From: Terriglobus tenax
Lineage (GTDB): Bacteria > Acidobacteriota > Terriglobia > Terriglobales > Acidobacteriaceae
Reading direction: 5' to 3'
DNA length: 64,000 nucleotides
NCBI RefSeq assembly: GCF_025685395.1
Contig: NZ_JAGSYA010000004.1
Location: forward strand, 682,001-746,000
Shown: one piece after another, positions 31,556 through 33,717 of the stretch
Position numbering within the stretch: position 1 is the first letter of the stretch
How the letters are laid out: the number at the start of each line of letters is the position of its first letter
Position numbers and translations under genes: made by a program
The notes under the pieces: model-generated
What the model was told of the DNA's origin: nothing
What the model saw: only the letters and a program-made list of their open reading frames with translations
The model's database searches: none

Positions 31556-31596
31556 TTTGTCATTTCGGAGCGAAGCGGAGAAATCCGCTTCGCAAG
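31556..31596. repeat. REP-like dispersed palindromic repeat, copy 1
   Basis: The segment TTGTCATTTCGGAGCGAAGC continuing GGAGAAATCCGCTTC has the same pattern as the copy at 31997-32034. Partly self-complementary; lies between the aminotransferase stop and the terminator. Confidence 0.5.
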
Positions 31597-31632: not shown

Positions 31633-31660
31633 AAAGCCCGCCAACCGGCGGGCTTTTCTG
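31633..31660. terminator. Bidirectional intrinsic terminator
   Basis: Stem AAAGCCCGCC / GGCGGGCTTT with AACC loop; TTTTCTG on the plus side and a run of A (T on the minus side) upstream. It serves both the aminotransferase gene and the convergent sulfur-carrier gene. Confidence 0.87.
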
Positions 31661-31685: not shown

Positions 31686-31967
31686 CTAGCAGCACCCACC
31701 GGCAATGCTCGGGATCAGCATGATCTCATCGCCATCTTCAAACGTATGCGACTCTCCGCCGAGAAAGCGGATGTCCTCATCGTTCACATACACGTTGATG
31801 AACTGGCGCAGCTTGCCGCTCTCGTCCTTGATGTGCGATCCCAGCGCCGGGAACTTCACGCCAAGATCTTCCACCAGTGCGGGCAGATTGGCAGCGGTCG
31901 AATCAACCTTCTTAACACCATCCGTGTGACGAACAAACGCAGTCGGCAACAATACTTTTATAGACAT
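31686..31967 (-). CDS. ThiS/MoaD-like sulfur carrier protein
   Basis: The 93-residue product is a ubiquitin-like beta-grasp protein: IKVLLPTAFVRHTDG, LPALVEDLGVKFPAL, INVYVNDEDIRFL and GDEIMLIPSIAGG. Members carry sulfur as a C-terminal Gly-Gly thiocarboxylate formed by an E1-like adenylyltransferase. Here the tail is GGCC, so either two cysteines must be clipped off first or the family works differently. GAAGGGAAG precedes the ATG. It lies 93 bases after a threonine-synthase-like PLP gene under a SAM-type riboswitch, which suggests a role in sulfur transfer to a homoserine derivative rather than in molybdopterin or thiamine synthesis. No E1 or protease gene is adjacent. Confidence 0.85.
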   Translation of the reverse strand: MSIKVLLPTAFVRHTDGVKKVDSTAANLPALVEDLGVKFPALGSHIKDESGKLRQFINVYVNDEDIRFLGGESHTFEDGDEIMLIPSIAGGCC

Positions 31968-31996
31968 CGCGTACTTCCCTTCTTCTCATGCGCTTT

Positions 31997-32034
31997 TATT
32001 TGTCATTCCGCAGCGCAGCGGAGGAATCTGCTTT
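31997..32034. repeat. REP-like dispersed palindromic repeat, copy 2
   Basis: TTGTCATTCCGCAGCGCAGC continuing GGAGGAATCTGCTTTT: inner arms (CCGC..GCGG, GATTCC-like ends) are self-complementary. It matches copy 1 at 31556-31596 at most positions. It lies between thrC and the carrier gene. Confidence 0.55.
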
Positions 32035-32060
32035 TCCTGACAACTAAGAGCTAACAACTG

Positions 32061-33341
32061 TTACCGGGCTACCAGTTCGGCTTCTTCCGCCGCAACCCCG
32101 TTGATCTCCTTCAGATACGCATCGAACTCGGCCAGCTTCGGCTTTACTGCGCGTCCAAAGTCATAGCGGCTGGTCAGCACGTCGGTCGTCTTCAGGCCAT
32201 TGCCGGTAATGCAAACCACCGTCGTCTGGTCCTTGTCGATGCGGCCCTCGGCAATCAGCTTCGCCGTCACGGCAGTGGTGACGCCGCCGGCCGTCTCCGT
32301 GAAGATGCCTTCCGTCTCCGCCAGTTCCTGCATGCCGCTGACAATCTCCACGTCCGAAACATCCTCAGCCCAGCCACCGCTCTCGCGGCACAGCTTTGCT
32401 GCAAACGGGCCATCAGCCGGGTTGCCAATCGCCAGTGAGCGGGCAATCGTGTCCGGCTTCTGCGGCTCGTGGCGGTCCAGGTTGTTCTTTACCGCGTGCG
32501 AGATCGGGGAGCAGCCCGTGGCCTGCGCTCCAAAGAACTTCACATGCTTTGCCTCGACCAGCCCCAGGTACACCAGCTCGTCAAAGGCCTTCTTGATCTT
32601 GCGAATCAGTGAGCCGCCGGCCATCGGAACGACAACGTTATCCGGCAGCTTCCATCCCAGCTGCTCGGCAATCTCATAGCCCACGGTCTTTGAGCCCTCG
32701 GCATAGTACGGCCGCAGGTTCACGTTTACAAAGCCCCAGTTGTACTCATCGGCAATCTGCGAGCACAGGCGATTCACGTGGTCATAGTTACCATCGATCC
32801 GCACCAGGCGCGCGCCATACACCAGCGTGTTGATAATCTTCGCCGGCTCCAGGTCAGCCGGCACCAGGATGCAGCTCTTCAGTCCAAGGCGCGCCGCCTG
32901 CGCCGCCACGGAGTTGGCCAGGTTGCCGGTTGAGCTTGCGCCCACCGTCTCAAAGCCGAAGAAACGGGCATTCGCCAGCGCCACGGCGACAACACGATCC
33001 TTGAAGCTCAGCGTCGGGAAGCACACCGCGTCGTTCTTGACATACAGATTCGCCGCACCCAGGCGCTTGCCCAGGTTATTTGCCTTCACCAGCGGCGTAA
33101 AGCCAACCGGCAGGTCGGGCTGAAAGCCCTCGGGAATGGGAAGCAGAGCGCGATAGCGCCAGATGCTGGCCGGGCCAGAGGAAATGGACTCACGGGTGAC
33201 CTTGCCCTTCACGGCATCCAGGTCATACTCCAGCTCCAGCGGATAGAAGCACTCGTCACAGGCAGACAGCGGCTGGTTGCCATAGTTCTTGCCGCAGCTC
33301 TTGCACTTCAATACGTACGTGACACACGCACCATCGGACAT
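32061..33341 (-). CDS. thrC: Threonine synthase-like PLP enzyme with N-terminal zinc ribbon
   Basis: The 426-residue product has an N-terminal rubredoxin-like ribbon (C13, C16, C28, C31), the fold-type II PLP lysine K114 in LSFKDR, SSTGNLANSVAAQAARLG, the phosphate-binding loop PMAGGSLIRKI and a late TGNGLKTTD segment. This matches the zinc-ribbon threonine synthase group, which converts O-phosphohomoserine to threonine. GGGGAG precedes the ATG. The leader (33483-33560) folds as a SAM-I/IV-type riboswitch and the next gene is a ThiS/MoaD-like sulfur carrier. Both point to sulfur metabolism, so the enzyme may instead use the same substrate for gamma-replacement to homocysteine. By family alone, threonine synthase is the conservative call. 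Confidence 0.85.
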   Translation of the reverse strand: MSDGACVTYVLKCKSCGKNYGNQPLSACDECFYPLELEYDLDAVKGKVTRESISSGPASIWRYRALLPIPEGFQPDLPVGFTPLVKANNLGKRLGAANLYVKNDAVCFPTLSFKDRVVAVALANARFFGFETVGASSTGNLANSVAAQAARLGLKSCILVPADLEPAKIINTLVYGARLVRIDGNYDHVNRLCSQIADEYNWGFVNVNLRPYYAEGSKTVGYEIAEQLGWKLPDNVVVPMAGGSLIRKIKKAFDELVYLGLVEAKHVKFFGAQATGCSPISHAVKNNLDRHEPQKPDTIARSLAIGNPADGPFAAKLCRESGGWAEDVSDVEIVSGMQELAETEGIFTETAGGVTTAVTAKLIAEGRIDKDQTTVVCITGNGLKTTDVLTSRYDFGRAVKPKLAEFDAYLKEINGVAAEEAELVAR

Positions 33342-33717
33342 ACGTTCTTACTCCCCATGGCGGAGGAAGTCCGGTCCGGTGACGTTGTCTCTCTGGAAGC
33401 TGGCCTCAGACCCTGGAACGAGGAGGCACGGGGAAGGAATTGAAAACGTTCCTTACTCCGAATCTCATGTTCCCTGTCGCCAGGAGAGAGTTGACACCGG
33501 TACGCCTTTGTTCTGTCCGGTTGTCGTGGCGTCACAGGGCTCGTCCCTCAACCACTCTTCATGAAATTCGCGCTGGACCTTGCGACCCAGCTTGAATGTA
33601 TTGTTTGTATCACCGCGCTGCCCGGCGGCACAACCTGGAGTGCAGCCAATGGGGATTGGGCGCAGTGAATGGCATCAAACATGTGGAAATCGGCTCCCGC
33701 CGGACCTCATGGAGGTT
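33342..33717. other. 376-base region upstream of thrC: riboswitch, leader and promoter
   Basis: It holds the SAM-type aptamer (33483-33560, minus), then a downstream leader of about 140 bases with a 6-bp hairpin AAGGAA/TTCCTT near 33432-33455 that might act in the expression platform, and the presumed promoter between 33561 and 33717. No protein gene was recognised here. Confidence 0.6.
33483..33560 (-). promoter_or_regulatory. SAM riboswitch aptamer (SAM-I/SAM-IV clan, P4 absent)
   Basis: Reading the minus strand from 33560: AGAG starts P1; GTGG (33555-33552) pairs with CCAC (33529-33526) as P2; inside it GAGGGA...GCCC...TGACG is the SAM-I kink-turn core. Then CAACCGG pairs with CCGGTG as P3, with the conserved CAACC and GGTGTCAA strands (family CAACC and GGTGCCAA), and CTCT closes P1. 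No P4 stem is present, and a GCGA-tetraloop hairpin (CCTG/CAGG) follows P1 at once, as P5 does in SAM-IV. SAM binding would switch the downstream thrC-carrier unit. P1 is short (about 4 bp), the weakest point. Confidence 0.72.

Follow-up and report, generated by a model that had tools for sequence, protein, structure and literature searches.

Homocysteine synthesis with a protein-bound sulfur donor is reportedly a feature of the MetM/MetO pair of Streptomyces, in which Hasebe, Adachi, Maruyama and Hamano (AEM, 2024) are said to have placed metO downstream of metM and to have recognised thiocarboxylated MetO as the sulfur donor. A protein thiocarboxylate is likewise said to give the sulfur for homocysteine in the HcyS/HcyD plus MetY system of Wolinella succinogenes, together with a JAB-type protease; MetY is a fold type I enzyme whose substrate is O-acetylhomoserine. 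Streptomyces MetM is described as a homocysteine synthase with O-phosphohomoserine as its substrate (Hasebe et al. 2024, as cited in PMC12172450), and the same source mentions a metO carrier and an S-adenosylmethionine (SAM) riboswitch upstream of metM in S. albulus, as well as MetM homologues in cyanobacteria. In the related cysteine pathway of mycobacteria, CysO receives its thiocarboxylate from MoeZR and is joined to O-phosphoserine by CysM, after which Mec+ cleaves the resulting adduct by hydrolysis (PMC3227635). Iyer et al. 2006 (PMC1779556) list an operon type composed of a carrier, an E1-rhodanese protein, JAB and a cysteine synthase that includes an acidobacterium, and another composed of a carrier, JAB, E1 and an O-acetylhomoserine sulfhydrylase that lists Wsuc. 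Here we describe a locus of Terriglobus tenax that resembles these systems. It lies in a stretch of 64,000 nucleotides, referred to below as the window, which covers positions 682,001-746,000 of contig NZ_JAGSYA010000004.1 in assembly GCF_025685395.1, a genome of 4.36 Mb in 4 contigs that is 98.41% complete.

The minus strand of the window carries, in this order, a SAM-I riboswitch, a threonine-synthase-like pyridoxal phosphate (PLP) gene, here called metM, and a gene for a CysO-like sulfur carrier, here called metO (Table 1). With a probability of roughly 0.83, we regard this as a module for homocysteine synthesis that is repressed by SAM and belongs with MetM/MetO of Streptomyces; given the published Streptomyces system and the Nonomuraea locus described below, it would therefore be an acidobacterial version of a module already known. 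An initial annotation of this DNA had recognised a SAM-type riboswitch upstream of a fold-type II PLP gene and a ThiS/MoaD-like gene behind it, and all of these elements were recovered in our searches. Its functional proposal, namely that O-phosphohomoserine and a carrier thiocarboxylate yield homocysteine under repression by SAM, stands as the best-supported reading, the chemistry itself being what we infer. Of the conditions that it had named as refuting, the two open to computation, a riboswitch match lacking significance and metM as the sole thrC of the genome, do not apply. Its claim that such a pairing was unreported does not survive, as MetM, metO and the SAM riboswitch had been described in Streptomyces by Hasebe et al. 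2024 (PMC12172450). For MetM in Acidobacteriota, no publication was found within our partial coverage of the literature.

The leader of metM matches RF00162 (SAM-I) with 69.7 bits (gathering score 44.4, E 3.3e-14) over the full model (1-108 of 108), and this is the sole Rfam match at gathering scores in the whole window. Assignment to SAM-IV or the SAM-I/IV variant was rejected, as Rfam gives SAM-I alone. No second RF00162 match at E <= 1 was found in the T. tenax genome among the 150 of 380 first-look candidates that were scored. In an alignment of such leaders, itself fitted to the structure, the modelled helices show standard pairs in 99.7% of cells. Changes on both sides of a pair affect 4 pairs and 60 cells, where shuffling gives 1.8 pairs and 17.1 cells on average; further pair types are not more numerous than in shuffles, 210 of 500 of which reach the observed number. 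Between the aptamer and the start codon of metM no terminator-like site was found. A Shine-Dalgarno-like GGGGAG lies about 9 nt upstream of the ATG. With the aptamer left out of the folded sequence, most of this site is predicted to be paired, which would fit translational control of this metM; taken as a whole, the leader does not fold more stably than its shuffles (z -0.07). In the leaders of four relatives (L053, L057, L088 and L096), inspection by eye shows a T-rich run behind a hairpin, and expression platforms may thus differ among relatives. High SAM would be expected to fold the aptamer and thereby lower expression.

The arrangement is conserved among relatives. A scan of genome contigs, from which the best 80 of 149 relatives were kept, gave loci with acidobacterial record titles apart from L036, labelled Verrucomicrobia, and L027, labelled only as a bacterium. 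A carrier open reading frame (ORF) accompanies metM in 78 of the 80, lying just downstream in 77 and sharing one ORF with it in the remaining one; the exceptions are L085, whose contig ends 5 bases past metM, and L072, which is without a carrier. The shared ORF (L084:5998-7596) encodes MetM and carrier in 532 amino acids, was seen in one metagenome-assembled genome, and could be a natural fusion or the product of a lost stop. A riboswitch model (R1), built from 23 metM leaders of which 8 belong to these 80 loci, finds the riboswitch at 75 of the 80, three of them cut by the contig end. The five loci lacking a match are L067, which has no upstream sequence, L052, which has 296 bases of it, and L070, L074 and L080. 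Several kilobases upstream of metM in L070 (1330-1402) there is a fluoride riboswitch (RF01734, 43.7 bits), the SAM riboswitch not being found there. At the loci of seven ThrC paralogues we found neither a riboswitch (0/7) nor an adjacent carrier (0/7).

The metM product belongs to the PALP family of Pfam and scores 278.9 bits with the TIGR00260 thrC model (cut-off 167.1), and threonine synthases are its best relatives of solved structure; cysteate synthase was considered and rejected (TIGR03844, 44.7 bits against a cut-off of 324.9). The possibility that metM is the only thrC of the genome, which the initial annotation had raised, was likewise rejected. There are two other ThrC-like genes, whose products are 33% and 35% identical to that of metM: one, at C3:1266626, is directly followed by the homoserine kinase gene thrB (TIGR00260 270.2 and TIGR00191 270.3 bits), and the second matches the PRK08197 type (543.3 bits). 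The genome thus has a normal thrC-thrB operon apart from metM. We built a tree of 53 proteins from 46 chosen among 106 MetM-class sequences, including that of Nonomuraea, and the seven ThrC paralogues; for the tree and the clade test Nonomuraea served as the actinobacterial member. A branch with 100/100 support separates the MetM class from the ThrC paralogues and places the Nonomuraea protein on the MetM side; the program warned that branches are long among the ThrC sequences and for the Nonomuraea one. An alignment showed residues N208, L209, R210 and Y213 to be identical in all 106 MetM-class proteins and P211 in 95. At position 210 the seven paralogues carry N (four) or E (three), and at position 213 they carry R (four), L (two) or T (one). 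The loop thus reads NPYR in the genome's thrC as against N-L-R-x-[YF]-Y throughout the MetM class, and the ThrC-type arginine is absent from the metM product, which has Tyr213 at the corresponding position. In ThrC the loop around this position contacts the substrate phosphate. The test is to be taken as indicative, because just four of the seven paralogues have arginine at 213.

The distribution of other homocysteine routes points in the same direction. The best MetX match in the T. tenax genome reaches only 19.5 bits, no HcyBio is found there at E 1e-10, and MetA/HTS is found at E 0.001 in none of the 16 genus genomes, T. tenax included. MetX-like matches of 92-126 bits occur in 8 of the 16; they fall below the count threshold given next and are probably other alpha/beta hydrolases. 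Across the phylum we sampled 99 acidobacterial genomes at least 90% complete, 25 of which have MetM-class matches of at least 421 bits, the next match being at 239.6. MetX was counted at E <= 1e-40, because no genome, 14 controls included, passes the curated cut-off of 500 bits. MetX or HTS (MetA-type) was then found in 1/25 genomes with MetM as against 34/74 without it (Fisher p 6.8e-5); dropping six weaker MetX matches leaves 1/25 against 28/74 (p 7.9e-4). HcyBio occurs in 4 of the 99, none of which has MetM. Within the window's own family, the eight MetM genomes are without MetX or MetA-type enzymes and the two genomes lacking MetM both have MetX. One genome of this family (G022) has MetX and gave no match to MetM or the CysO-like carrier, an apparent loss of the whole carrier-based route.

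The metO product is a member of the ThiS family (PF02597), and its closest solved structure is CysO of M. tuberculosis (E 5.8e-19). Its Gly-Gly motif is not at the C-terminus, as two residues (CC) follow. Tails of this kind are typical of the relatives: among their 78 metM-linked carriers, 76 could be read to the motif and 74 of these continue for 1 to 24 residues beyond it, most commonly for two (43), with 2 ending at Gly-Gly. The five metM-linked carriers from other families of the phylum sample (L118, L119, L121, L122 and L123) all end in Gly-Gly. Carriers that are tailed or fused past this motif would need to be cut after it to bear a thiocarboxylate, and the sequences suggest that JAB trims the metM-linked ones. 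JAB has been proposed to process fused carrier proteins (Iyer et al. 2006, PMC1779556), and an archaeal JAMM protease cleaves a linear SAMP1-MoaE fusion (PMC4443979). Prok-JAB has at least one match in each of the 16 genus genomes searched and one in T. tenax (C4:1939237), where it lies in a cluster of four, cysM-JAB-cysO-moeZ. The CysM-like member of this cluster scores 342.5 bits with TIGR01138, below the cut-off of 394.2; its carrier, the second CysO-like one of the genome, ends PSIAGG-TGVRASRSLCCR, and its MoeZ has a rhodanese domain. Neither a JAB nor an E1/MoeZ gene adjoins metM-metO in the window, and for this reason we go no further than proposing that JAB and MoeZ of the cysM cluster could serve MetO too. 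Of 30 carrier loci retrieved, 11 from other acidobacteria (L150, L152, L153, L155, L156, L157, L158, L161, L162, L163 and L168) have a CysO-like carrier fused in frame before MoeZ, with an internal Gly-Gly. Most of these fusions have JAB and cysM as neighbours, JAB being present in the retrieved sequence of 9 of the 11, and they would be polyproteins in need of cleavage.

From these components a pathway can be proposed. MetO would be trimmed by the JAB protease to its Gly-Gly end and converted by MoeZ, through its E1 and rhodanese functions, to the C-terminal thiocarboxylate. ThrB would make O-phosphohomoserine, the substrate taken by MetM, which would eliminate the phosphate; the thiocarboxylate would then attack the gamma-carbon, replacing the addition of water by which threonine is formed. 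The carrier-homocysteine adduct would finally be hydrolysed, probably by the same JAB. Maturation of the carrier by removal of a tail is possibly a new twist on the MetM/MetO kind. A broader scheme, to which we give somewhat less than even odds, is that these acidobacteria use CysM and CysO for cysteine and MetM and MetO for homocysteine, making both carriers as C-terminally extended precursors (elsewhere fused to MoeZ), with a single JAB and MoeZ as the common control node and the SAM riboswitch throttling the homocysteine branch alone.

Several observations weigh against assigning the window module to homocysteine synthesis. The Fisher test treats genomes as independent and ignores their relatedness, and G084, a genome with MetM, gives a partial match to MetX as well. 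Furthermore, among the 74 genomes lacking MetM there are 40 in which neither MetX nor HTS appears, and 36 of those 40 show none of the three other routes sought (MetX, HTS and HcyBio), so that a lack of these enzymes in itself proves little. The genome has three strong PF01053 Cys/Met-metabolism PLP enzymes that could make homocysteine by transsulfuration. In the phylum sample, where flanks of about 1-1.5 kb were surveyed for the carrier, it was detected beside metM in 12 of 25 MetM genomes and the riboswitch at 14 of 25, and neither is thus obligatory. A cyanobacterial MetM homologue, 51.6% identical to its Streptomyces counterpart, is reported to have threonine synthase activity (PMC12172450). 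For enzymes of this clade, the T. tenax protein included, our partial coverage of the literature brought up no assay. As a separate observation, at loci L129 and L130 a riboswitch-controlled metM has a tRNA gene downstream, with no carrier detected nearby.

MetM might instead use free sulfide, with the adjacent carrier dispensable or serving CysM; in favour of this, 13 of the 25 MetM genomes of the phylum sample showed no carrier next to metM within these flanks. Such a use is nevertheless unlikely, as a CysO-like carrier is present somewhere in all 25 of these genomes, T. tenax has, besides the carrier linked to metM, a dedicated CysO next to CysM, and the linkage holds in nearly all of the 80 relatives as counted above. 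The main rival to the MetM reading is a plant-type route, in which a cystathionine gamma-synthase (CGS, L006-like) using O-phosphohomoserine and a cystathionine beta-lyase (CBL, L007-like) make homocysteine, leaving MetM as a minor or condition-specific enzyme or a second threonine synthase. Plant CGS does use O-phosphohomoserine, and a CGS of this type would also account for our finding no acyl-homoserine synthase in the genome, whose PF01053 enzymes include CGS-like (PRK07811, 498.7 bits, cut-off 513) and CBL-like (TIGR01329, 471.2 bits, cut-off 487.5) ones. However, this route leaves unexplained why the only SAM riboswitch found in the genome is on metM and none at the CGS and CBL loci (L107 and L108), as well as the complementary distribution of MetM and MetX/MetA, and the two enzymes may also serve reverse transsulfuration; we regard it as improbable. 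That metM encodes a normal threonine synthase which acquired control by a SAM riboswitch, its neighbouring carrier serving another enzyme, would suit the TIGR00260 score above the curated cut-off and the activity reported for the cyanobacterial homologue (PMC12172450), but is very improbable, as a thrC already adjoins thrB, repression of threonine synthesis by SAM would have no logic, the NPYR loop of thrC departs from that of all 106 MetM-class sequences, and riboswitch and adjacent carrier go with the MetM clade and with none of the seven ThrC-paralogue loci.

If the module makes homocysteine as we propose, the Streptomyces pathway extends to Acidobacteriota, with the complementary distribution of MetM and MetX/MetA as independent genomic support. 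MetM would explain methionine synthesis in Terriglobus-like genomes without acyl-homoserine synthases, and the results suggest that many soil-bacterial genes named threonine synthase are homocysteine synthases instead. The carrier tails and carrier-MoeZ fusions hint at a proteolytic maturation of bacterial sulfur carriers like that of ubiquitin precursors.

Among the remaining features of the locus, the terminator-like hairpin behind metO is the one such site observed, against a shuffled mean of 2.1 (sd 1.3), so that shuffles on average exceed the observed number. A short palindromic element, CCGCTGCGCTGCGGAATGACA, and a copy with three mismatches lie at 32001-32021, in the gap between metM and metO, and at 31558-31578, after metO; 2 matches stand against 0.01 expected, as counted within the 64-kb window.

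Table 1. Features of the metM-metO locus (window coordinates)
Feature	Position	Strand	Model or method
SAM-I riboswitch aptamer (S box), metM leader	33462..33567	-	RF00162
Predicted expression platform and ribosome-binding site	33342..33461	-	fold and terminator scan
metM, fold-type II PLP enzyme, threonine-synthase family, MetM clade, 426 aa	32061..33341	-	
metO, CysO/ThiS/MoaD-type sulfur carrier, 93 aa, end PSIAGG-CC	31686..31967	-	
Intrinsic-terminator-like hairpin 3' of metO	31633..31656	-	consensus match only

In comparison with the known systems, the window shares with Streptomyces MetM/MetO a threonine-synthase-like PLP enzyme, a sulfur-carrier partner and a SAM riboswitch, and differs in its acidobacterial host. 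A search of a plasmid collection, with 50 of 194 matching records listed, brought up a Nonomuraea gerenzanensis protein 57.2% identical to MetM, the only one above 40% among the matches listed. Its locus has a SAM-I riboswitch (68.7 bits), a MetM-class gene of the same clade and a carrier gene in the same order as the window. The Nonomuraea carrier ends VAGG, in contrast to the tailed carriers of the acidobacterial relatives, and a groEL-like gene, recognised by eye, lies further downstream, unlike in the window, where none follows metO. ThrC and MetM share the family model TIGR00260 and are set apart by loop residues, genomic partner and riboswitch. The Wolinella HcyS/HcyD-MetY system has in common with the proposed route a protein thiocarboxylate as the sulfur donor for homocysteine and a JAB-type protease, while MetY differs from MetM in being of fold type I and using O-acetylhomoserine. 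The M. tuberculosis CysM-CysO-Mec+-MoeZ pathway has, like the window, a CysO-type Gly-Gly carrier and a PLP enzyme (PMC3227635), and a phospho-amino-acid acceptor would be common to both, that of MetM being, as proposed, O-phosphohomoserine. The window enzyme belongs to the threonine-synthase rather than the cysteine-synthase family and has no JAB or MoeZ gene beside it; elsewhere in its genome T. tenax, like M. tuberculosis, also holds the full cysM-JAB-cysO-moeZ set.

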